Below are positions 10,032 to 19,849 of a stretch of 32,267 nucleotides of DNA, one piece after another; position 1 is the first letter of the stretch, and each line of letters opens with the position of its first letter. The stretch is taken from assembly GCF_000518885.1 (NCBI RefSeq), contig NZ_JAEL01000065.1, positions 1-32,267 on the forward strand, in the 5' to 3' direction. A program made the position numbers and the translations under genes. The DNA comes from Bacillus sp. J33. GTDB lineage: Bacteria > Bacillota > Bacilli > Bacillales > Cytobacillaceae. The notes below the pieces were generated by a model. The model had not been told where the DNA came from. It ran no database searches and saw only the letters and a list, made by a program, of their open reading frames with translations.

Positions 10032-10169
10032 CTATTCCCTCAACCGATCCGGCAATCCCTGGATTGACGATACCACCACATCGAGCTTTGCTTCGATTCT
10101 GTTCAGCAGGAAAAGCGTGACAACAATCGGGAAGCCGAGCTCACTAATCAATGTGATCATCTGTTCCAT
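10032..10169 (-). CDS. yvrJ: YvrJ-family small protein
   Basis: This 45-aa protein begins MEQMITLISELGFPIVVTLF and then reads LLNRIEAKLDVVVSSIQGLP, the typical YvrJ pattern: a hydrophobic helix followed by an amphipathic one. It is probably a small membrane-associated protein. The ATG follows AAAGGAG at 9-nt spacing. YvrJ-like genes often travel with DUF1659 and DUF2922 genes, as here; the function is not known. A strong terminator separates it from the DUF2922 gene, so it may depend on read-through or its own promoter. Confidence 0.85.
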   Translation of the reverse strand: MEQMITLISELGFPIVVTLFLLNRIEAKLDVVVSSIQGLPDRLRE

Positions 10170-10231
10170 AGTATCTGCTCCTTTCCGGTGCCAGGTCATC
10201 TGGACTGGCATCCTATAAGTAAACTTCCTAT

Positions 10232-10269: not shown

Positions 10270-10488
10270 TTATGCTAATTCATATTCGGTTACGTTGCGC
10301 TCAAGCAATCTGGCTTCTTTTGCTTGAACAAAGTCGCCGCCATTGCCGTCAAATGCATTGGCAGCAATAATTTGATCCATCGCCGCCTTTACAGCAGCTG
10401 GATTAATCGGTTCAACTGGATTATCAATGGTTAGTTTGGATGGCTTGCCCATTGTAGATAGGAAAGTCAATTCTAATGTTTTTGCCAT
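10270..10488 (-). CDS. DUF2922-family protein
   Basis: This 72-aa protein begins MAKTLELTFLSTMGKPSKLT and has the DUF2922 pattern of Firmicutes: N-terminal beta strands, a central VEPINPAAVKAAMDQIIAAN helix, then AKEARLLERNVTEYELA. Its function is unknown. The start follows AGGAGGTG. It lies downstream of a DUF1659 gene, the standard pairing, and ends at a terminator. Confidence 0.88.
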   Translation of the reverse strand: MAKTLELTFLSTMGKPSKLTIDNPVEPINPAAVKAAMDQIIAANAFDGNGGDFVQAKEARLLERNVTEYELA

Positions 10489-10531: not shown

Positions 10532-10750
10532 TTAGCCGATAATCTCGAAGCTGTCGCTGCGGTTAAGCGCAACTAATGGATCATTGGAAAGAGATGCAAC
10601 TGCCTGCCCAACTGTGAAAAGCTGGTCTGCCGTTGCGGATTGCTTTACGCTGCTGTAAGTTTTGGACTTGTGTACCGGTTTGCCTTGCTCGTCCAATCCG
10701 GTTTCAAATACCAGGCGAAGCTTAGAATCGATGATGTTTGCAACTGCCAT
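10532..10750 (-). CDS. DUF1659-family protein
   Basis: From ATG 10750, which follows AGGAGGTGATC, the protein has 72 aa: MAVANIIDSKLRLVFETGLD, then TYSSVKQSATADQLFTVGQA and a C-terminus ending DSFEIIG. An upstream GTG belongs to the ribosome site and is not the start. DUF1659 proteins are small, of unknown function, and usually sit next to DUF2922 and YvrJ genes. Its promoter block is closely repeated before the gene at 18268-19080, which suggests shared control. Confidence 0.88.
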   Translation of the reverse strand: MAVANIIDSKLRLVFETGLDEQGKPVHKSKTYSSVKQSATADQLFTVGQAVASLSNDPLVALNRSDSFEIIG

Positions 10751-10773
10751 GCTGATCACCTCCTTTCACCTTC

Positions 10774-10812
10774 TATATACGTTTTTATTGGGCAATAGGA
10801 CAGGGTGAATTT
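10774..10812 (-). promoter_or_regulatory. Promoter of the DUF1659-DUF2922 unit, matching the one at 19105-19145
   Basis: Read on minus: AAATTCACCCTG, then TGTCCT as a -35-like element (10797-10802), a 17-bp spacer, TATATA (10774-10779) and AAGGTGAAAGG up to the ribosome site. The same order, spacing and most bases recur before the 18268-19080 gene. The -35 is unlike TTGACA. Confidence 0.6.
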
Positions 10813-10846
10813 ATAAAGTGATTTAAATTTTTGAAGAGACACTAAA

Positions 10847-10912
10847 TTCCGTAAATACGGAAAAAAGGGTAAAAATTTTTCCGGGAAAGCGGAAAATTCC
10901 GCATATACGGAA
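10847..10912. promoter_or_regulatory. Three upstream activator dyads for the sigma-54 promoter
   Basis: TTCCG-N6-CGGAA occurs three times: 10847-10862, 10879-10894 and 10897-10912. The first and third are almost fully palindromic across the centre (GTAAATAC and GCATATAC). They lie about 115-180 bp before the -24 element, a normal distance for enhancer sites of sigma-54 activators. The activator encoded at 16165 is the likely binder. Confidence 0.75.
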
Positions 10913-10920
10913 TAAAACTA

Positions 10921-10996
10921 GTAAAACGTTTTCATTCTTCAAGCCTTTAAAATAGTATTTTTAAATATTTTTTACCCGTTTAAGAAAACGTTTTCG
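10921..10996. promoter_or_regulatory. Two cre-like CcpA sites
   Basis: GTAAAACGTTTTCA (10921-10934) and AGAAAACGTTTTCG (10983-10996) each match the cre consensus TGWAANCGNTNWCA at 12 of 14 positions. Both lie between the enhancer dyads and the sigma-54 promoter. CcpA repression of ketone-body use in sugar-rich conditions would fit. Confidence 0.5.
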
Positions 10997-11025
10997 TAGT
11001 TTTAAAAGTTTATTTCATAAAAAGT

Positions 11026-11041
11026 TGGCACGTATCTTGCA
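11026..11041 (+). promoter_or_regulatory. Sigma-54 (-24/-12) promoter of the ato operon
   Basis: The sequence TGGCAC-N5-TTGCA, preceded by T and followed by AA, matches the sigma-54 consensus exactly, with the required GG-N10-GC spacing. It lies 46 bp before atoD. Transcription should need SigL and an AAA+ activator. Confidence 0.88.
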
Positions 11042-11086
11042 AAGTATCAATAGTGAGAACAGACAAATATTCTAGGGGTGCAATAA

Positions 11087-11743
11087 ATGAGTAAAATGAC
11101 ATCTTATGAGGAGCTCTTGCAAATATTTAAAGATGGCATGACCATCATGTCCGGAGGTTTTATGGGGATTGGAACTTCGGAATTATTAGTGTCAGCCCTT
11201 TTGGAATCAAATGTAAGCGGTTTAACGTTGATTGCCAGTGACACTGCGACTGAAGAAACAGGTGTTGGACCATTAATTGTCAATAAACGAGTAGATAAAT
11301 TGATAGCTTCCCATATTGGGACAAATCCGGAAACGGGCAGGCAGATGATTCAGGGAGATTTGGAAGTCGAGCTTGTTCCTCAGGGGACGCTTGCTGAGCG
11401 AGTTCGTGCCGGAGGGTCAGGTCTTGGCGGAATATTAACCCCGACTGGTGTCGGTACAGTTGTAGAAGAAGGAAAGCAGAAAATCGAGGTGGATGGACGC
11501 GAGTATCTGCTGGAAAAGCCGCTCCGTGCAGAAGTTGCCATCATAAAAGCGAAGAAGGCTGATAAGCTTGGCAATCTCGTTTATAACCAATCTGCCAGGA
11601 ACTTCAATCCAATGATGGTGATGGCAGCGGATTTAGTTATTGCGGAAGTAGAGGCGATCGTTGAAGTCGGCGAAATTGACCCGCATGATGTGGACACTCC
11701 GGGAATTATAGTAGATAAAGTGATTGTCAAAGGAGGCAAGTAA
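11087..11743 (+). CDS. atoD: Acetoacetate CoA-transferase, subunit A
   Basis: This 218-aa subunit of a family I CoA-transferase moves CoA from a donor acyl-CoA to acetoacetate or a short-chain acid. It closely follows E. coli AtoD through most of its length: [15 protein letters not shown] at about 17-31, [35 protein letters not shown] and NQSARNFNP. The Gly-rich GGFMGIG region belongs to the CoA/oxyanion site. It is the first gene after the sigma-54 promoter and lies one base before its partner subunit. It acts in the cytosol as an A2B2-type complex. Confidence 0.95.
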
Positions 11744-11744
11744 A

Positions 11745-12383
11745 ATGATCTTGACTAAAACAGCTAAAGAAATTATTGCTGAGCGGGCAGCAAAGGAATT
11801 GCATGATGGAGATGTTGTAAACCTTGGAATAGGGCTGCCGACTCTGATCCCTAATTATCTGGAAGCAGGGGTAAATGTTTTCCTGCAATCTGAGAACGGC
11901 TTCATTGGATTAGGTCCGGTTAGAGGGGAAGTCGAGCCGGATATCGTGAATGCCGGAGGGCAGCCTGCAGGGATTAATCCTGGCGGAGCTTTTTTTGATA
12001 GTACGTATTCATTCCAATTAATCCGAGGCGGACATGTGGATGTAACGGTTCTTGGGGGCCTTGAAGTTGACCAGCAAGGAAATCTTGCAAACTGGATGAT
12101 TCCTGGAAAAATGGTGCCTGGAATGGGCGGTGCCATGGACCTTGTGACAGGTGCGAAAAAAGTGATTGTGACCATGGAGCATTGTTCCAAAAAGGGAGCG
12201 CCTAAAATCTTGAAAGAATGCAGGCTGCCTCTTACTGGCAAGGGTGTTGTCGACTTAATCATTACAGAACTCGCAGTGTTCAAGGTGACAGAAGAAGGCC
12301 TTGTTTTGGTTGAACTCCAGGAGGGTGTTGACCTGCAAACCGTTATCGAGAAAACAGAAGCTGAATTTACATTACAAAACTAG
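11745..12383 (+). CDS. atoA: Acetoacetate CoA-transferase, subunit B
   Basis: The start is ATG 11745, just after the atoD stop, with AAAGGAGG inside the atoD end; this gives 212 aa. A TTG at 11724 lies upstream of that ribosome site and is not the start. The catalytic Glu is Glu50 in LQSENGFIGLGP, the residue that forms the glutamyl-CoA intermediate. NAGGQPAGI, RGGHVDVTVLGGLEVD and PGKMVPGMGGAMDLV match AtoA. With AtoD it activates acetoacetate to acetoacetyl-CoA, the substrate of the thiolase encoded next. Confidence 0.95.
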   Translation: MILTKTAKEIIAERAAKELHDGDVVNLGIGLPTLIPNYLEAGVNVFLQSENGFIGLGPVRGEVEPDIVNAGGQPAGINPGGAFFDSTYSFQLIRGGHVDVTVLGGLEVDQQGNLANWMIPGKMVPGMGGAMDLVTGAKKVIVTMEHCSKKGAPKILKECRLPLTGKGVVDLIITELAVFKVTEEGLVLVELQEGVDLQTVIEKTEAEFTLQN

Positions 12384-12403
12384 TTTTATAGGAGGAACTG
12401 AAT

Positions 12404-13588
12404 ATGCGTGAAGCAGTTATCGTAAGCGCTGTCAGAACAGCGATCGGAAGTTTTATGGGAACACTAAGCAAGACACCGGCAACGGAGCTGGGTGCTGTTG
12501 TTATAAAGGAAGCACTTAAACAAGCAGGAGTGAAGGAAAATCAGGTAGATGAAGTGATCATGGGAAATGTCCTTCAGGCGGGTTTGGGACAGGGGCCTGC
12601 CCGCCAGGCGGCTTTAAAGGCTGGCTTGCCTGAGGAAGTTCCTGCTGCGACAATTAACAAGCTATGCGGATCCGGATTGAAAGCGGTGCATTATGCAGCA
12701 CAGGCTATTCAGCTTCAAGAGGCAGATATCGTTGTTGCTGGCGGCATGGAAAATATGAGTCTCGCACCATACCTGCTAATGGATGGGCGTACAGGTTTCC
12801 GCATGGGTGACGGAAAAGTGATTGACAGCATGATTCATGATGGACTTCAATGTGCCATCAATAGCTGTCATATGGGTATTACCGCTGAAAATATAGCAGA
12901 TCAATATGAATTATCCCGTGAGTCACAGGATGAATTTGCAGCTTGGAGCCAGCAAAAAGCTGATGCTGCCATAAAAGAAGGCAAATTCAAGGATGAAATT
13001 GTTCCGGTTGCAATCCCGCAGCGCAAAGGGGATCCCATTGTCTTTGATACAGATGAATTCCCGCGTGCAGGGGTAACAGCAGAAAAGCTTAGCGGTTTAA
13101 AGCCGGCTTTCAAAAAAGAAGGCTCTGTGACAGCCGGCAACGCTTCAGGCATTAATGACGGAGCAGCGGCACTTGTCCTTATGAGCAGGGAAAAAGCAGA
13201 GGAATTGGGCATTAAGCCATTAGCTGTATTAAAAGGAAATGCATCAGTCGGGGTAGACCCTAAAATTATGGGAATCGGACCAATTCCTGCATCCAAAAAA
13301 GCGCTGGCAAAAGCAGGTCTTTCAATGGAAGACATGGATTTGGTTGAAGCAAATGAAGCGTTCGCAGCCCAGGCATTGGCGGTGGGACAAGACCTTGAGA
13401 TTCCAAGAGAGAAGCTCAATGTAAATGGCGGTGCGATTGCACTGGGACATCCAATTGGTGCAAGCGGCGCGAGAGTCCTTGTTACATTATTGCATGAAAT
13501 GAAACGCAGAAATTCCCGGTATGGCCTTGCTGCTCTATGTATCGGCGGGGGCATGGGTGTCGCAAGTGTTGTTGAATTGGAAAAATAA
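12404..13588 (+). CDS. atoB: Acetyl-CoA C-acetyltransferase (thiolase)
   Basis: This 394-aa thiolase cleaves acetoacetyl-CoA with CoA to two acetyl-CoA (reversible). Catalytic residues are visible: Cys88 in NKLCGSG, His349 in GHPIGASG and Cys379 in CIGGGMG. GGMENMS and NEAFAAQ are also typical. Length is standard. It follows atoA by 20 bp with a GGAGG site and ends the acetoacetate-to-acetyl-CoA route. The adjacent dehydrogenase shows that the operon works in the direction of 3-hydroxybutyrate breakdown. Confidence 0.95.
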
Positions 13589-13616
13589 TAGATTGATAGT
13601 TTAGGAGGAAGGGCAA

Positions 13617-14390
13617 ATGGTAAATCAAGTTGTTTTTGTGACAGGTGCAGCAAGCGGAATTGGCTACCAAATCGGAGAAGCCTTTTTAAATGAAGGGGCA
13701 AGAGTGGTTTTTACTGATATTAATGATGAAAAGATTCAGGAAGTTACAAAGTCTTTAAGAGATAAAGGCTTTGATTGCTTAGGAATCAAGGTGGATGTAA
13801 CAAGTGAAGAGGATATTAAGAATGCAATTAACCAGACGGTAGAGAAATATGGCAGACTCGACGTTCTATTAAATAATGCAGGTCTGCAGCATGTGTCACC
13901 AATCGAAGAATTCCCGACTGCGAAGTTTGAATTCATGATTAAAGTGATGCAGGTTGCACCTTTTGTGGCGATGAAGCATGCGATTCCTATTATGAAGAAA
14001 CAGGGATTTGGCCGTATTATCAACATGGCATCCATCAATGGGCTGATAGGGTTTGCCGGAAAAGCGGCATATAACAGCGCCAAGCATGGTGTAATAGGCT
14101 TAACTAAAGTGGCGGCGCTTGAAACCGCGGCCCATAATATCACCGTGAATGCAATTTGCCCTGGGTATGTTGATACTCCGCTGGTACGGGGACAGTTTGA
14201 AGATTTGGCTAAAACTCGCAATGTACCGGTCGAAAAGGTCAAAGAAGAAGTCCTTTACCCGCTTGTACCGCAAAAGCGCCTATTGGATGTACAGGAAATT
14301 GCTGATTATGCTTTATTCTTAGCGAGTGAAAAAGCAAAAGGCGTTACAGGACAGGCTGTTGTACTGGATGGCGGATACACAGCTCAATAG
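13617..14390 (+). CDS. bdhA: D-3-hydroxybutyrate dehydrogenase (SDR family)
   Basis: This 257-aa short-chain dehydrogenase oxidises 3-hydroxybutyrate to acetoacetate with NAD. The cofactor motif TGAASGIG is at 9-16, NNAG at 86-89, and the catalytic Ser139, Tyr152 and Lys156 are in place. Asp34 after strand 2 favours NAD over NADP. Features close to known 3-hydroxybutyrate dehydrogenases and YxjF of B. subtilis include LQHVSPIEEFP and the CPGYVDTPLV segment. It follows the thiolase by 28 bp behind AGGAGG. It supplies the acetoacetate that AtoDA activates. Other hydroxy-acid substrates are possible but less likely in this operon. Confidence 0.92.
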   Translation: MVNQVVFVTGAASGIGYQIGEAFLNEGARVVFTDINDEKIQEVTKSLRDKGFDCLGIKVDVTSEEDIKNAINQTVEKYGRLDVLLNNAGLQHVSPIEEFPTAKFEFMIKVMQVAPFVAMKHAIPIMKKQGFGRIINMASINGLIGFAGKAAYNSAKHGVIGLTKVAALETAAHNITVNAICPGYVDTPLVRGQFEDLAKTRNVPVEKVKEEVLYPLVPQKRLLDVQEIADYALFLASEKAKGVTGQAVVLDGGYTAQ

Positions 14391-14680
14391 AGTGAAACTT
14401 CCATCAGTGACGGTTTTTCACTGATGGTTAGCTGAACCAATCGGGCATTTACGGGCAGTTGATCCCCCATTTAGAACAATCTTTGGCACTCAAACTCTTA
14501 AACTGGGGTTCTTACTGCCCGTTAATGCGGGATAAAGTGAAACTTCCATCAGTGGCGGTTTTTCACTGATGGTTAGTTGAACCAATCGGGCATTTACGGG
14601 CAGTTGATCCCCCATTTTAGAACAATCTTTGGCATTCAAACTCTTAAACTGGGGTTCTTACTGCCCGTTAATGCGGGATA
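14391..14680 (+). repeat. Two tandem copies of a 145-bp structured repeat
   Basis: Copy 1 (14391-14535) and copy 2 (14536-14680) differ at only about four positions, including one extra T. Each has a perfect 10-bp hairpin (CCATCAGTGA with TCACTGATGG, 7-nt loop) and a larger arm pairing ACGGGCAGT with ACTGCCCGT around CCCCA/TGGGG. No reading frame explains the conservation. The copies fill most of the gap between bdhA and the permease. Confidence 0.9.
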
Positions 14681-14697
14681 TAACTACATGAGAATGA

Positions 14698-14757
14698 TAT
14701 GCAGGCATGTTGCATAGTCCGCGCTATAAGAATCAGTCTATGCAAATGCTCGCATAT
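14698..14757 (+). promoter_or_regulatory. Hairpin in the permease leader
   Basis: A 20-nt arm from 14698 and a complementary arm ending at 14757 (with CTATGCAA at 14738-14745) pair with few mismatches around a loop of about 20 nt. The structure ends some 13 nt before the ribosome site. It could act as an mRNA processing or translational control element. I see no terminator tail. Confidence 0.5.
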
Positions 14758-14782
14758 TAACTACTGCATAAGAGGTGAAATG

Positions 14783-16066
14783 ATGTTTGGAATCATATTA
14801 GGGTTAATTGTCTTGATGGTTTTGGCTTACTTTGGCTGGTCGATTATCTGGGTCGCGCCAATTGCAGCAGGCGTCGTGGCTTTAACAGGCGGACTTGATC
14901 TGCTTGATGCCTATACAAACACATATATGAGCGGGTTTGTTAATTTTGCGGAACAATGGTTTCCTGTCTTTATGCTGAGCGCCATTTTCGGTAAGTTGAT
15001 GGAAGACACAGGCATGGCTAAATCGATTGCTGTTGTTCTTTCCAAATGGATGGGGACGAAACGTGCGATACTTGGTGTCATTTTGTCCTGCGGTGTGCTG
15101 ACATATGGCGGCATCAGTTTGTTCGTTGTGGTCTTTGCGGTTTATCCGCTTGCTTTATCACTGTTCAGAGAAGCAAATATTAGCCGGAGAATCATGCCAG
15201 CTACGATTGCATTGGGTTCCTTTACGTTCACAATGACAGCGCTTCCGGGAACGCCGCAAATCCAGAACCTTATTCCAATGCCATATTTCCAGACAGATGC
15301 GATGGCAGCTCCCATTATGGGGATTGTGTCGGCGTTGATTATGGGTGCAGGCGGTTATTGGTATTTGCTTTATAGGCAAAAGCAGCTTGCGAAAAATGGC
15401 AAGGTGTTTACGGAGCCAAAAGATAACAGCCTGCTTGATGTCTCAGAACATGCACCAAATGTTTTTCTATCACTGCTTCCACTGTTAACGGTATTATTAA
15501 CGCTTAATCTATTGGATTGGCATATCGTGGTAGCATTGCTTTCAGGTATCATGTTGATCTTGTTATTGAACATTACGAAAATCAAAGGGTTTGTTAAAGC
15601 AATCAACGGCGGTGCAGCCGGGTCGATTACAGCCATCATCAATACAAGTGCTGCCGTTGGATTTGGCACAGTTGTACAGGCTGTTCCAGGTTTTAAAAAG
15701 ATTACAGAGCTATTGATGAATATACCAGGCAACCCGCTGATCTCTGAAGCTGTTGCGATCAACCTGCTGGCTGGTGCTACAGGTTCAGCATCAGGCGGAA
15801 TGGGAATTGCTCTTGAAGCATTAGGAAAACAATATTTTGAAATTTCACAAGCGACTGGCATTAATCCGGAAGCATTCCACCGCATTGCCTCTTTATCATC
15901 CGGCGGACTGGATGTTCTTCCGCATAATGGGGCTGTATTGACGCTATTAACCATCACAGGCTTATCGCATAAAGAGAGCTACCGTGATATTGCGGTTGTC
16001 GGGATTGTTATTCCGATTATTGCAACTGCTGCAGCGATTGTGCTTGCGGCAATGGGAATCTATTAA
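14783..16066 (+). CDS. GntP-family permease, probably for 3-hydroxybutyrate/acetoacetate
   Basis: I choose the second of two adjacent ATGs (14780 and 14783), placed well behind AGAGGTG; this gives 427 aa. An in-frame start at 14699 would add a soluble Cys-rich stretch without ribosome site. The protein is strongly hydrophobic with about 12 segments and GntP-type motifs (GGISLFVVVFAVYPLAL, MTALPGTPQIQNLIP, SGGLDVLPHNGAVLTLL). YxjC in the B. subtilis yxjC-scoAB-yxjF group is the parallel. GntP members carry gluconate and other organic acids by proton symport. The operon suggests uptake of 3-hydroxybutyrate or acetoacetate, which is an inference. Confidence 0.9.
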   Translation: MFGIILGLIVLMVLAYFGWSIIWVAPIAAGVVALTGGLDLLDAYTNTYMSGFVNFAEQWFPVFMLSAIFGKLMEDTGMAKSIAVVLSKWMGTKRAILGVILSCGVLTYGGISLFVVVFAVYPLALSLFREANISRRIMPATIALGSFTFTMTALPGTPQIQNLIPMPYFQTDAMAAPIMGIVSALIMGAGGYWYLLYRQKQLAKNGKVFTEPKDNSLLDVSEHAPNVFLSLLPLLTVLLTLNLLDWHIVVALLSGIMLILLLNITKIKGFVKAINGGAAGSITAIINTSAAVGFGTVVQAVPGFKKITELLMNIPGNPLISEAVAINLLAGATGSASGGMGIALEALGKQYFEISQATGINPEAFHRIASLSSGGLDVLPHNGAVLTLLTITGLSHKESYRDIAVVGIVIPIIATAAAIVLAAMGIY

Positions 16067-16077
16067 TGATGAATTGG

Positions 16078-16109
16078 AGGCTGTCGGAGAGGGCAGCTTC
16101 TTCTTTTTG
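16078..16109 (+). terminator. Weak Rho-independent terminator
   Basis: AGGCTGTC (16078-16085) and GGCAGCTT (16092-16099) pair with two G-U pairs, followed by CTTCTTTTT. It probably ends or weakens the ato transcript before the regulator gene. Confidence 0.55.
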
Positions 16110-16119
16110 AATGAAAATT

Positions 16120-16128
16120 TGATATAAT
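16120..16128 (+). promoter_or_regulatory. Extended -10 promoter of the sigma-54 activator gene
   Basis: TGATATAAT is a perfect extended -10 (TGnTATAAT). No good -35 lies upstream. It would give the activator gene a separate, constitutive sigma-A start. Confidence 0.5.
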
Positions 16129-16164
16129 GACTATTTAAGAGGCGTTGGAACGGGGTGTGATGGT

Positions 16165-17559
16165 ATGAAGCTTCCTTATGAGTGGTTAGAGGAGATTATT
16201 TCTTTATGTATCGAACGTATTGTCGTCGTTGACCATGAAGGGATCATTGTTTATATTGATTCAGCTTATTGTGAATTCATAGGAATCCCCTTCGAAGAAG
16301 CAGTTGGGCAGCCCGCTCAAGATGTAATTATGAATACGCGCATGCACATTGTCGCAAAAACAGGCGAAAAAGAATTGGAAGACCTTCAGCCCATTAACGG
16401 AAGTGTCATGATTGCAAACCGCTATCCCATTGTCATCGGCGGGGAGTTAGTCGGAGCTTTAGGGACGGTGATGTTTCCTGATCCGGATAACCTCAGGCAC
16501 TTTAAAAATAAAATGAATAACCTGATGGAAGAATTGAACTTTTATAAAAATAAAGCCATTAATGAGCTGAAAAGCAAGTATACATTTGATGATCTTGTTG
16601 GCAGAAGCCCTCTGTTTACTTCAGCAAAACGGATGGGTGAGAAGGTTGCCGGGGGTGATTCTTCTATTTTGATTACCGGAGAATCCGGCACGGGAAAAGA
16701 ATTATTTGCCCATGCCATTCATCACAGCAGCATGCGAAGCCATTTTCCGTTTGTTCCTGTAAACTGCGCTTCTATTCCGGAAGCTTTATTTGAATCCGAG
16801 TTTTTTGGATATGATGAAGGAGCTTTTACAGGGGCTGTAAAAGGCGGGAAAGAAGGCTTATTTAAAGTGGCTGACAAGGGAACGATTTTTTTGGACGAAA
16901 TTGGGGAAATGCCGCTTAGCATGCAAAGCAAGTTATTAAGAGCCCTGCAGGAAAAAGAAATTCAGCCGGTTGGCGGGCAGAAGGCGATTCCTGTTGATGT
17001 CAGAATCATCGCAGCAACAAACCGGGATTTACTCCAAATGGCTGAAGACGGCACATTCAGGCAGGATCTATACTACAGGCTAAATGTGATTAACATCGAA
17101 ATTCCTCCTTTAAGAAAAAGGAAAGAAGATATTGAAATGATTGCGAAAAATCTGTTGCATAAGCTGGAGAGGAAATTTTACCGGAGCGGAACAGCCATTT
17201 CCCCCGAAGCGATTGAAAAATTGACGGCACACAAATGGCCTGGAAATGTCCGTGAACTGGAGAATGTACTCGAAAGAGCCATCAATGTGGTCGATGGCTC
17301 CGAAATCGAGGTATCACACCTGCCGCTTTATATTGCAGATCAAGAGGTAAAGGGAAAAGTGCAGGATTCAAGAGTTTCTCCTTTACCTGATTCCTCGGCT
17401 GCAATAGTCGAGCCTTTGAAGGATACAATAGAAAAAGCTGAAAAAAAAGCGATCCTGCATGCCCTGCATGTCACGGAAGGGAATAAATTGGAAGCTGCTA
17501 AACTCCTGGGAATTGGAAAAACGAAATTTTACGATAAATGCAAGCTTTTTGGTATATGA
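16165..17559 (+). CDS. Sigma-54-dependent activator (PAS, AAA+, HTH_8)
   Basis: This 464-aa protein activates SigL RNA polymerase by ATP hydrolysis. A PAS-like sensor occupies about 15-105 and a short coiled coil about 110-135. In the AAA+ domain, Walker A is GESGTGKE (172-179), the sigma-54-contacting GAFTGA loop is at 219-224, Walker B IFLDE is at 241-245, and the R-finger region follows (AATNRDL, FRQDLYYRLNV). Residues about 430-464 form a Fis-type HTH ending KTKFYDKCKLFGI. It lies downstream of the ato operon, which carries the only clear sigma-54 promoter in the window, with three dyads upstream. The ligand is probably a ketone body or hydroxy acid. Confidence 0.95.
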   Translation: MKLPYEWLEEIISLCIERIVVVDHEGIIVYIDSAYCEFIGIPFEEAVGQPAQDVIMNTRMHIVAKTGEKELEDLQPINGSVMIANRYPIVIGGELVGALGTVMFPDPDNLRHFKNKMNNLMEELNFYKNKAINELKSKYTFDDLVGRSPLFTSAKRMGEKVAGGDSSILITGESGTGKELFAHAIHHSSMRSHFPFVPVNCASIPEALFESEFFGYDEGAFTGAVKGGKEGLFKVADKGTIFLDEIGEMPLSMQSKLLRALQEKEIQPVGGQKAIPVDVRIIAATNRDLLQMAEDGTFRQDLYYRLNVINIEIPPLRKRKEDIEMIAKNLLHKLERKFYRSGTAISPEAIEKLTAHKWPGNVRELENVLERAINVVDGSEIEVSHLPLYIADQEVKGKVQDSRVSPLPDSSAAIVEPLKDTIEKAEKKAILHALHVTEGNKLEAAKLLGIGKTKFYDKCKLFGI

Positions 17560-17566
17560 TTATTGT

Positions 17567-18073
17567 TTATGAAAAATGAGCATTTAAATAGCTGCTATAG
17601 ATGACTTTTAACTTCTCCCGGGCACCCTGTCGCCAGTTTTTCACTGCTGACAGGGTGACTTGTTCTTTATCGGCAATTTCCCTGACTGTCATTTGATCAC
17701 ACAACGTATACTCCAGCCATTTTCGCTGGTTGGCTGAAAGAGTTCCGCAGGTCGAAAGCAATTCCTGAAGCAGCTCAGTGCCGCTTAAATCTGAAGTTTC
17801 TGCGGTGATCTCCCAGAATTCTTCTTTCGGATAGACATACTGCGCCTTTTGGTTTGCTTCTTTTGTTAACTCGGTCATCATTTTCCCTTTTACAAAACTA
17901 TACGCATATGGTAAGAATGGCCCTTTCTCTGGATCATGCCGTTTCAAAGCTCTCCAGAGTGCAATCAGCCCCAGCTGATAGAACTCATCTCTGTTTTTAT
18001 AAATCCTCAGTCTGTTCATGATTTTATGGATCATCGGTTCATATTGTGCTGCAATTTGTTCAAAGCTCTCCAC
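17567..18073 (-). CDS. Small sigma-70-family RNA polymerase sigma factor
   Basis: This 168-aa protein starts at GTG 18073 behind AAAGG. It has region 2 (FYQLGLIALWRALKRHDPEK, residues about 30-50, then YAYSFVKGKMMTEL) and a C-terminal region 4 HTH (LCDQMTVREIADKEQVTLSAVKNWRQGAREKLK, about 125-158). Region 3 is short. The size is like SigO/ECF-like factors, and I cannot name the subgroup. It is convergent with the ato activator and follows the winged-helix-like gene, with repeat-rich DNA between. A shared atypical promoter at 10774 and 19105 may be its target. Confidence 0.85.
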   Translation of the reverse strand: MESFEQIAAQYEPMIHKIMNRLRIYKNRDEFYQLGLIALWRALKRHDPEKGPFLPYAYSFVKGKMMTELTKEANQKAQYVYPKEEFWEITAETSDLSGTELLQELLSTCGTLSANQRKWLEYTLCDQMTVREIADKEQVTLSAVKNWRQGAREKLKVIYSSYLNAHFS

Positions 18074-18167
18074 GTTAATAACCTTTCTGGAAAGCGCGCT
18101 CTCTTTGTATTCCCGGGTAGCTCTAACATAGCGGGAATAAGCAGTTTTTGCGAATCGAAAAAAAGTC

Positions 18168-18257
18168 GAGTTTCGGGGAGTTTACCCCCTAAACTCCCGG
18201 GTTTAGGTACCAAACTTCCGGATTAAGGGGGGTAAACTTGCCAACTTTCGGGGGAAA
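18168..18257. repeat. Iteron-like repeat cluster between the HTH gene and the sigma gene
   Basis: AAACTCCCGGGTTTAGG (18191) and AAACTTCCGGATTAAGG (18212) are direct copies 21 bp apart. A third related copy, CAACTTTCGGGGG, starts at 18242 and a fourth, GAGTTTCGGGG, at about 18168. GGGAGTTTA (18176-18184) and TAAACTCCC (18190-18198) also form a perfect 9-bp dyad with a CCCCC centre. The cluster lies upstream of the sigma gene and is a likely protein-binding array. Confidence 0.6.
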
Positions 18258-18267
18258 TTCACTTTTT

Positions 18268-19080
18268 TTATTTTTTGTAAAAAAAGTTGATGCATAAGTC
18301 ATCCTGATCTGCTGTAAAGCCCATTTCAAACAACTCTTCGAAGTAAAGCTCCTCCAATTTTTTATTCAAAATGCCGTAGAAGTATGCGATCGGTTTTGCT
18401 ACAGTGCTGGCTTTCATTTTGCGGATCAGCTGCTTAAAGGAATGAATGGCTATGTCGAGGAGTCCGGTTTTGTCTTGTTCCCGGTTGTTTTTGTAGCCTG
18501 CGATGGCCGTCATCCTCCAAAACTCTTCAATTTGTCTGGCTTCAGGAAAAAAGTACTTCACAGCGTCGGCAAATGGTTTTGGAACCCGATCACTAGTAAA
18601 AGTATGATCGAGCGCGGTTTTGCTACGTTTAGTATTCTCTTGACTTTTACTAGTTTTAGAAAGATTGATAGTTTTATTTGGGTGGTCCATTTTTTTCTCC
18701 TTAGGTGGTTCACTGTTAGGAAAACAATTGAAAATGTAGAGGTTGCTGGATTGCGAACCGTTTTTCCTTTCTGTTTCATAGACTGTAAAAATGCCTAGCT
18801 CAGCTGCTTTTACGATCATTCTTTTAAACGTGGAACGGGAAATTCCGTTGCCGCTGTATTCTTCGTGAATGGCTTTTAGAACGGTCCCGATCTTGGCATT
18901 GGACACTCCCGGAACCTTGGCTGCAAAACGGGCCAGCCGCTTTAACCCTATCAGTTCTCCTTTCGAAAACTTGTCCTTATTTACCGCAAGCCACATCTCC
19001 AAATGAGCATTAAACTCCTGCAGGTTTTTAAACTGCGAAAACTTATCAAACTGGTCAACACTGCCTGATTTTAAATTCAT
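18268..19080 (-). CDS. Winged-helix-like DNA-binding protein (function unknown)
   Basis: From ATG 19080 the protein has 270 aa; a GTG at 19101 lies in the promoter/ribosome region and is not the start. Residues about 40-115 look like a helix-turn-helix of the HTH_36/replication-initiator kind (GLKRLARFAAKVPG, AKIGTVLKAIHEEY, SRSTFKRMIVKAAELGI). A polar linker rich in Lys, Ser and Thr (about 130-165) follows, then a helical C-terminal part ending DLCINFFYKK. Its promoter block matches that of the DUF1659 gene. It precedes the sigma gene, with the iteron-like cluster between. It may bind those repeats. I do not recognise a named family beyond the HTH. Confidence 0.75.
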   Translation of the reverse strand: MNLKSGSVDQFDKFSQFKNLQEFNAHLEMWLAVNKDKFSKGELIGLKRLARFAAKVPGVSNAKIGTVLKAIHEEYSGNGISRSTFKRMIVKAAELGIFTVYETERKNGSQSSNLYIFNCFPNSEPPKEKKMDHPNKTINLSKTSKSQENTKRSKTALDHTFTSDRVPKPFADAVKYFFPEARQIEEFWRMTAIAGYKNNREQDKTGLLDIAIHSFKQLIRKMKASTVAKPIAYFYGILNKKLEELYFEELFEMGFTADQDDLCINFFYKK

Positions 19081-19104
19081 TTTAATGCACCGCCCTTTCA
19101 CCTT

Positions 19105-19145
19105 TATATATAGAAATGAAATGGGAAAAAGGGCAGGGTGAATTT
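19105..19145 (-). promoter_or_regulatory. Promoter matching that of the DUF1659 unit
   Basis: Read on minus: AAATTCACCCTG (19134-19145), TGCCCT as -35-like element (19130-19135), 17 bp, then TATATATA (19105-19112) and AAGGTGAAAGG. Element order and spacing equal those at 10774-10812. Confidence 0.6.
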
Positions 19146-19234
19146 CGGGAAGTTGTGACGAAATAGTGAACAGTTAGGGTATTACTAGGAACAGGAAAAG
19201 GTAGTTTTGGGTTATAAGATTTAGGCGATATGTG

Positions 19235-19849
19235 AGAGTGATGGATGAGTGGATGTCATGGGTGGTTCATGGGGACGATGATAGAGGTACAGGGAAGAAA
19301 AAGGTCGCCATAAAAGGATCATGGCGACGTTAAAAGAGGCGGAGGGAAGAAAAAGGTCGTCATAAGAGGTTCATGACGACGTAAATGGAAGCGGAGGGAA
19401 GAAAAAGGTCGCCATAAGAGGTTCATGGCGACTTTAAAAGAGGCGGAAGGAAGAAAAGGGTCGCCATAAAAGGATCATGGCGACGTAAATGGAAGCAGAG
19501 GGAAGAAAAAGGTCGCCATAAGAGGTTCATGGCGACTTTAAAAGAGGCGGAAGGAAGAAAAGGGTCGCCATAAAAGGATCATGGTGACGTTAATGGAAGC
19601 GGAGGGAAGAAAAAGGTCGTCATAAGAGGTTCATGGCGACGTAAATGGAAGCGCAGGGAAGAAAAAGGTCGCCATAAGAGTTTCATGGCGACGTAAATGG
19701 AAGCGCAGGTAAGAAAAAGGTCGCCATAAAAGGATCATGTCGACGTTAATGGAAGCGGAGGGAAGAAAAAGGTAGCTATAAAAGATTCATGTCGACATTA
19801 ATAGTGGCCCAGGGAAGAATAACGTCGATATAGAAGTTCACGGCAACCT
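19235..19849. repeat. Tandem repeat array, 52-bp period, about 12 units, hairpin in each
   Basis: The left arm GTCGCCAT recurs at 19304, 19356, 19408, 19460, 19512, 19564, 19616, 19668, 19720, 19772 and 19824, always 52 bp apart. A decayed unit lies in phase at 19252. Each unit reads GGAAGAAAAAG, GTCGCCAT, a 9-nt loop, ATGGCGAC, then a linker (TTAAAAGAGGCGGAG or TAAATGGAAGCGGAG). The outer units are the most diverged. The period is not a multiple of three and no long frame crosses it. Confidence 0.95.

Follow-up and report, generated by a model that had tools for sequence, protein, structure and literature searches.

SigS of Staphylococcus aureus, a small sigma factor with regions 2 and 4 (PMC13192611, PMC2585143), has been reported to activate sroAB directly, with SroA and SroB acting back on sigS (PMC13192611); binding of CymR and KdpE to the sigS promoter has also been reported (PMC4265319). 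In Bacillus subtilis, SigO-RsoA, an alternative sigma factor split into two proteins, starts yvrJ (PMC8103513) and controls its own operon (PMC8103513, PMC10028694). Here we describe a stretch of 32,267 nucleotides (nt) from Bacillus sp. J33 (contig NZ_JAEL01000065.1, positions 1 to 32,267; hereafter the window), in which two copies of one promoter block, P1 and P2, precede a helix-turn-helix (HTH) gene followed by a SigS-like sigma factor gene and, at a distance, a DUF1659-DUF2922-YvrJ unit. As background, the UviA-UviB and TcdR-TcdE type pairs of Clostridium place a small sigma factor beside a holin-like small membrane protein; unlike these, the window system has no toxin gene. It resembles SigO-RsoA in that an alternative sigma factor would control yvrJ and its own operon, but here regions 2 and 4 lie in one chain.

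The shared, non-standard promoter is real, and it is most likely that of the SigS-like sigma factor and its targets. We estimate a probability of about 0.72 that P1 and P2 are promoters of the sigma factor encoded at 17567–18073, driving its own array and the DUF1659-DUF2922-YvrJ unit. The parts of the two loci are as follows.

10032–10211, minus strand: YvrJ gene (PF12841), holin-like, matching holin family phrog_4898 at E 2e-6
10270–10488, minus strand: DUF2922 gene (PF11148), sharing its Pfam family with the gene that follows sroA in staphylococci
10532–10750, minus strand: DUF1659 gene (PF07872), of the Pfam family to which staphylococcal SroA belongs
10762–10812, minus strand: P2, promoter block of the DUF1659 unit, with the same layout before DUF1659 in relatives; CCTGTCC 10798–10804, N18, TATATA 10774–10779, AAGGTGAAAGG 10762–10772
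17567–18073, minus strand: sigma factor gene, 168 amino acids, regions 2 and 4 in a single chain by profile matches
18268–19080, minus strand: HTH gene, 270 amino acids, replication-initiator-like, matching PHROG 1835 (HTH DNA-binding) at E 8e-35
19094–19145, minus strand: P1, promoter block for the HTH gene and probably also for the sigma gene, from pattern match and alignment of relatives; CCTGCCC 19131–19137, N18, TATATA 19107–19112 (inside TATATATA), AAGGTGAAAGG 19094–19104

The promoter block and its conservation

The word AAATTCACCCTG occurs at 10801–10812 and at 19134–19145, and at both loci it leads into an exact CCT-N17-TATATA run and then AAGGTGAAAGG. The sequence-only reading of this DNA had described such a block at two loci with precisely 17 bp between CCT and TATATA, and both copies are as it described them. 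It had also proposed a genome-wide search for the run, and the pattern TTCACCCTG-N0-12-CCT-N15-19-TATATA matched P1 and P2 only in the whole 5.56-Mb genome; a third row of that search is a second register of TATATATA at 19105–19112, the same site. AAATTCACCCTG by itself occurs four times in the genome, the two further copies lying within long reading frames that are, by eye, RNase J-like and FtsE-like. With up to two mismatches the 12-mer is found seven times in the window against 4.24 expected, which is not above chance, and the evidence therefore rests on the whole block and its conservation.

Aligned upstream regions of relatives give the consensus CMTGTCC, N18, TATATA, about 3 bases, GGTGA. 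The N18 spacing holds in 52 of 54 DUF1659 regions, with one N17 and one N19 (registers read by eye, the 8-base TATATATA and the KATTAT forms being read in matching register); 12 Staphylococcus-family loci, 2 duplicate loci, and 1 locus with a mis-set start were excluded before this count. The −35 element of P1 in the window is CCTGCCC, against the family form CMTGTCC that stands 18 nt from TATATA. A reversed-pattern control found no site in 1.56 Mb of the named loci, both strands counted, and the strict pattern found eight sites there besides those before DUF1659: seven before an HTH or replication-type gene and one antisense at a DUF1659 start. The GGTGA after TATATA overlaps the ribosome-binding region, and it persists also where no Shine-Dalgarno sequence follows directly.

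Several other descriptions of the block were discarded. A dyad of TTCACC and GGTGAA with a 33-bp centre, also suggested from the sequence alone, is rejected because the TTCACC half is not conserved: relatives show CCACC, TTTACC, CCCCC, and others at that position. An ordinary TTGACA-type promoter at P1 is not supported, as a scan of 17400–19400 listed three sigma-70-type sites, all of them elsewhere, and an Rfam search of the same interval returned a single match far below its gathering score. A phage origin of the promoter was not supported either, as the GGTGA-containing pattern gave six viral loci, all coding sequence by eye and five of them one near-identical sequence.

P1 carries a further feature.

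19154–19170, minus strand: TTCACTATTTCGTCACA, element upstream of P1 promoters and absent from P2 promoters, from motif count

This TTCAC-N-TCACA element is present in 25 of 30 P1 regions and in 0 of 55 DUF1659 regions, by a pattern written after the P1 regions had been viewed, and it is possibly an activator site private to P1. Just upstream of P1, 19291–19827 is a tandem array of 10.3 copies of a 52-bp unit with a short inverted repeat.

One array, two sigma paralogues, and a probable link to SigS

The window sigma belongs to the sigma-70 family and is extracytoplasmic function (ECF)-like: PF04542 (39.1 bits) and PF08281 (26.2 bits) both score above their cut-offs, and NCBIfam TIGR02937 (sigma70-ECF superfamily) scores 68.1 bits against a cut-off of 42.9. 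About 6.75 kb of plus-strand genes separate it from DUF1659. On contig C124 of the same genome, HTH, sigma, DUF1659, DUF2922, and YvrJ stand in one row and one direction, with a sigma 47% identical to that of the window. We compared 62 sigma loci, namely 60 regions fetched around sigma homologues of relatives (among many listed), the window, and C124. The complete contiguous array is found in 24 of them, C124 included, and in one relative (L011) DUF2922, DUF1659, sigma, and HTH are contiguous. Because the array is contiguous on C124 and in relatives, the two distant loci of the window are, judged from gene order, halves of one array, each with its own promoter copy. At E 1e-15, 142 of the 151 genomes searched in the taxonomic family contain a match to the sigma.

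In a tree, the 25 sigmas with linked P1 and P2 fall into two clades, clade I with the window sigma (n = 16) and clade II with that of C124 (n = 9). The −10 element of P2 is TATATA in 16/16 of clade I and KATTAT in 9/9 of clade II, and KATTAT occupies P1 in 0/16 and 6/9, respectively. The last base of the −35 element follows the same division, being other than C at P1 in 2/16 of clade I versus 8/9 of clade II and at P2 in 2/16 versus 9/9. The window and C124 arrays would be paralogous sets, and the promoters of each would suit the sigma encoded in that set.

Both the sigma and its predicted targets suggest a link to the staphylococcal system. When ten Staphylococcus-type genomes were searched with a profile built from 20 window-type sigmas, each gave one full-length sigma (E 2.7e-8 to 1.6e-20); the label of these genomes, and the name SigS for their sigmas, depend on the NCBIfam SroA model, which matches 17 of 200 genomes of the class, 8 above its cut-off. 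All four SroA-type loci tested, two of them above the SroA cut-off, encode PF07872 followed by PF11148, the same pair of small proteins as in the window. The window DUF1659 protein scores 15.3 bits against the SroA equivalog model (cut-off 80) and is therefore a member of the same Pfam family, not an equivalog. The start regions are also alike, with TATATA and GAAAGGAGG; one Staphylococcus-type locus reads CGATATATAGTATGAAAGGAGG. In contrast, the −35 element CMTGTCC is clear in the window type and evident by eye in one Staphylococcus-type locus (L139). The window system differs further in having YvrJ as a third gene, an HTH gene before sigma, and an array that is contiguous in relatives; no match to YvrJ or HTH was found in 3-kb stretches around 12 SroA-type loci. 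We found no published link of SroA/SroB to DUF1659/DUF2922 in the literature searched, although Al Ali 2023 may state one, and a search on DUF1659/DUF2922 gave one paper, which concerns trait prediction from domain frequencies.

The host is Cytobacillus-like, as Cytobacillus records supply the nearest named relatives of its DUF1659 gene. Several array-bearing records carry questionable names at genus level (Pseudomonas sp. ISL-84, Paenibacillus sp. FSL R5-0490, and Sporosarcina globispora) and resemble Cytobacillus relatives at the array locus. Between the array halves, the plus-strand genes at 11087–17559 encode a sigma-54 activator (Pfam) and, by eye, a CoA transferase, a thiolase, a dehydrogenase, and a permease; at 14391–14680, between the dehydrogenase-like and permease-like genes, two near-identical adjoining stretches were seen by eye that a tandem-repeat scan did not list. 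The HTH protein has no Pfam match at E 0.01. YvrJ matches a holin family by profile. Models of DUF1659 and DUF2922, candidates for a fold shared with phi29 p6, are both beta-beta-alpha-beta; profile comparison of the two families gave no significant homology, and a search of the DUF2922 structure against viral structures gave no match at E 0.001.

Which regulator reads P1 and P2

We infer that holoenzyme containing the SigS-like sigma binds both blocks, reading CMTGTCC as −35 element across an 18-nt spacer from TATATA as −10 element, with the GGTGA box near the predicted start. P1 would start the HTH gene and, by read-through, sigma itself, giving positive autoregulation, and P2 would start the DUF1659-DUF2922-YvrJ unit. 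The feedback on sigma expression that is reported for SroA and SroB (PMC13192611) is proposed here by analogy: DUF1659 and DUF2922 could act back on the sigma, perhaps via its conserved leader. The region in question has two features.

18074–18120, minus strand: conserved sigma leader, with TACCCGGGAATA at 18108–18119 and palindrome AGCGCGCT at 18093–18100
18150–18267, minus strand: hairpin-forming stretch (fold −38.5 kcal/mol, z −2.62) that separates the HTH gene from the sigma leader

Feedback of the kind ascribed to SroA/SroB could act at this leader, which is a candidate for it. In 60 of the 62 loci sigma is preceded by CCCGGGAA or a close variant, and the longest palindrome after it has a half-length of at least 4 in 55, usually around GCGCGC. 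Among 12 Staphylococcus-family loci, seven have TCCGGAAA/T followed by different yet well-formed palindromes, and five have ACCGGTCA instead, without a marked palindrome. The TACCCGGGAATA core is found at 36 sites across 25 genomes, 14 of them away from the sigma gene; 11 of the 12 off-sigma sites viewed lie in reading frames of at least 100 codons and one lies outside such frames. Covarying RNA structure was not supported, because none of the five pairs predicted from 23 Bacillaceae sequences changed on both sides. The folded region at 18150–18267 is a possible attenuator or terminator, as modelled, and a scan for one type of terminator listed none there.

These features qualify the earlier proposal that the second block, as it leads into the sigma gene, is the promoter of the factor itself with DUF1659, DUF2922, and possibly yvrJ as its regulon. 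The block does precede the sigma locus, and the conserved array, the concerted promoter change, and the SigS-sroAB precedent speak for the proposal. However, the HTH gene comes first, and sigma starts 194 bases after it with a separate conserved leader or promoter of its own. In the target unit, YvrJ comes third, after DUF1659 and DUF2922; relatives also carry motif targets beyond the regulon that was proposed.

Four sets of observations weigh against assigning the promoters to this sigma. First, the strict pattern matches 38 of 80 named loci and a relaxed pattern another 12, which leaves 30 without a match to either; in many of these 30, TGTCC or something close to it can be seen by eye at a nearby spacing. 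Second, loci in which no HTH gene adjoins sigma contain no TGTCC-TATA site within 220 nt upstream of sigma, so in those loci sigma is not directly under a P1-type promoter and autoregulation through such a promoter is not general. Third, the arrays are inherited as blocks, and agreement between promoters and sigma tree is partly expected without function; the agreement alone is thus weak evidence, and the stronger point is that two separate promoters changed in the same letters. Fourth, loss of the motif together with sigma was not borne out. DUF1659 is present in 8 of the 9 genomes lacking a sigma match at E 1e-15. In one of these eight (G001) the sigma seems cut at a contig edge, and three are 66–88% complete. 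Four genomes labelled 94–99% complete have no full sigma match yet have a scored DUF1659 motif: 13/13 in G041 (280 contigs), 12/13 in G022 (220 contigs), 11/13 in G013 (40 contigs), and 7/13 in G021 (10 contigs). Assembly gaps may explain the undetected sigma in the two fragmented drafts, G041 and G022.

Of the alternatives, the one that survives best, though we consider it unlikely, is that the upstream element is the site of a regulator, such as the HTH protein, that activates an ordinary SigA promoter with TATATA as its −10 element. TATATA is close to the SigA −10 consensus, and the HTH protein is DNA-binding by family and is encoded by the first gene after P1. A sigma nevertheless better fits the fixed N18 spacing and the joint change of −35 and −10 elements with the sigma paralogue. 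In addition, 36 of the 62 sigma loci showed no HTH gene near sigma (no search for HTH genes was made in the rest of those genomes), and the activator reported for sroAB in Staphylococcus is SigS (PMC13192611). We regard it as very improbable that the shared block is just a leader and ribosome-binding region duplicated long ago, without any regulator in common. AAGGTGAAAGG does overlap the ribosome-binding region, and P1 and P2 were once in one ancestral array, but the block letters keep a fixed distance across genera while the intervening sequence varies, and in relatives the signal also precedes unrelated genes at other places. Equally little credence goes to another sigma system of the SigO-RsoA type, suggested by the start of yvrJ in B. 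subtilis (PMC8103513) and by the motif kept in two drafts where the window-type sigma was not found, because paralogous sigma clades track promoter variants and 24 of 62 loci have the window-type sigma in one array with both promoters.

A wider set of probable targets in relatives

A search of 52 genomes of the family for CMTGTCC-N18-TATATA gave 139 sites, whereas the reversed pattern gave 33; no site was present in 7 of the genomes. The downstream gene was typed for 111 sites, the 28 others being without DNA. The typed sites comprise 41 before DUF1659, 21 before the HTH gene, 28 at helicase loaders or at phage-type replication initiators other than the HTH gene (one of these sites falls within the gene itself), 3 before wall hydrolases, and 18 before something else or nothing, so that 93 of 111 are in four target classes. 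GGTGA-like letters follow the motif at 40/41 DUF1659, 18/21 HTH, 22/28 other replication, and 3/3 hydrolase sites and at 6/18 of the remainder. Among the untyped sites, six are immediately upstream of DUF1659 matches, and nine are variants of a single string that lacks GGTGA in four genomes whose DNA was available.

Scans of ten target proteins detected Phg_2220_C, DnaB_2, DnaD-like, and replication-initiation PHROGs, as well as Amidase_3 with SPOR and a glycoside-hydrolase-like domain with LysM. By eye, no phage structural genes were recognised in 11 flanks of 2–3 kb, the next gene in four of these flanks is the same tRNA-dihydrouridine-synthase-like frame, and at two loci a DnaB-helicase-like frame follows the target. 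In one relative (G141, L189:1501–1881) the motif is kept, and the DnaD-like gene found downstream of it in sister genomes is missing.

The window genome has one exact site (P2) and P1 with one mismatch, and the C124 pair is of the KATTAT kind; a further one-mismatch site (C124:38956) is antisense within a reading frame. With up to two mismatches there are 28 sites versus 27 for the reversed pattern, so weaker sites are indistinguishable from chance, and the wider regulon holds for relatives, not for the window genome.

Overall, the analysis supplies a promoter consensus and a gene set for a widespread sigma, on which our literature searches gave no study, and ties that sigma to the staphylococcal stress sigma SigS. 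It offers a testable role for DUF1659, DUF2922, and YvrJ, families of unknown or poorly known function, and the two paralogous sets, TATATA and KATTAT, in one genome permit direct specificity-swap tests. The phage-like gene set in relatives is unexpected, and the motif targets suggest a phage-like regulon. More tentatively, and with doubt, the SigS-like sigma may command a dispersed phage-like programme fixed in Bacillaceae chromosomes, with staphylococcal SigS as a reduced relative. Its members would be small nucleoprotein-like DUF1659/DUF2922 pairs, orphan phage-type replication initiators, helicase loaders, and a holin-like protein, to which some species might add endolysin-like wall hydrolases. 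If this is true, switching on the programme could alter replication and open the cell, for example to release DNA or protein, with no phage present.

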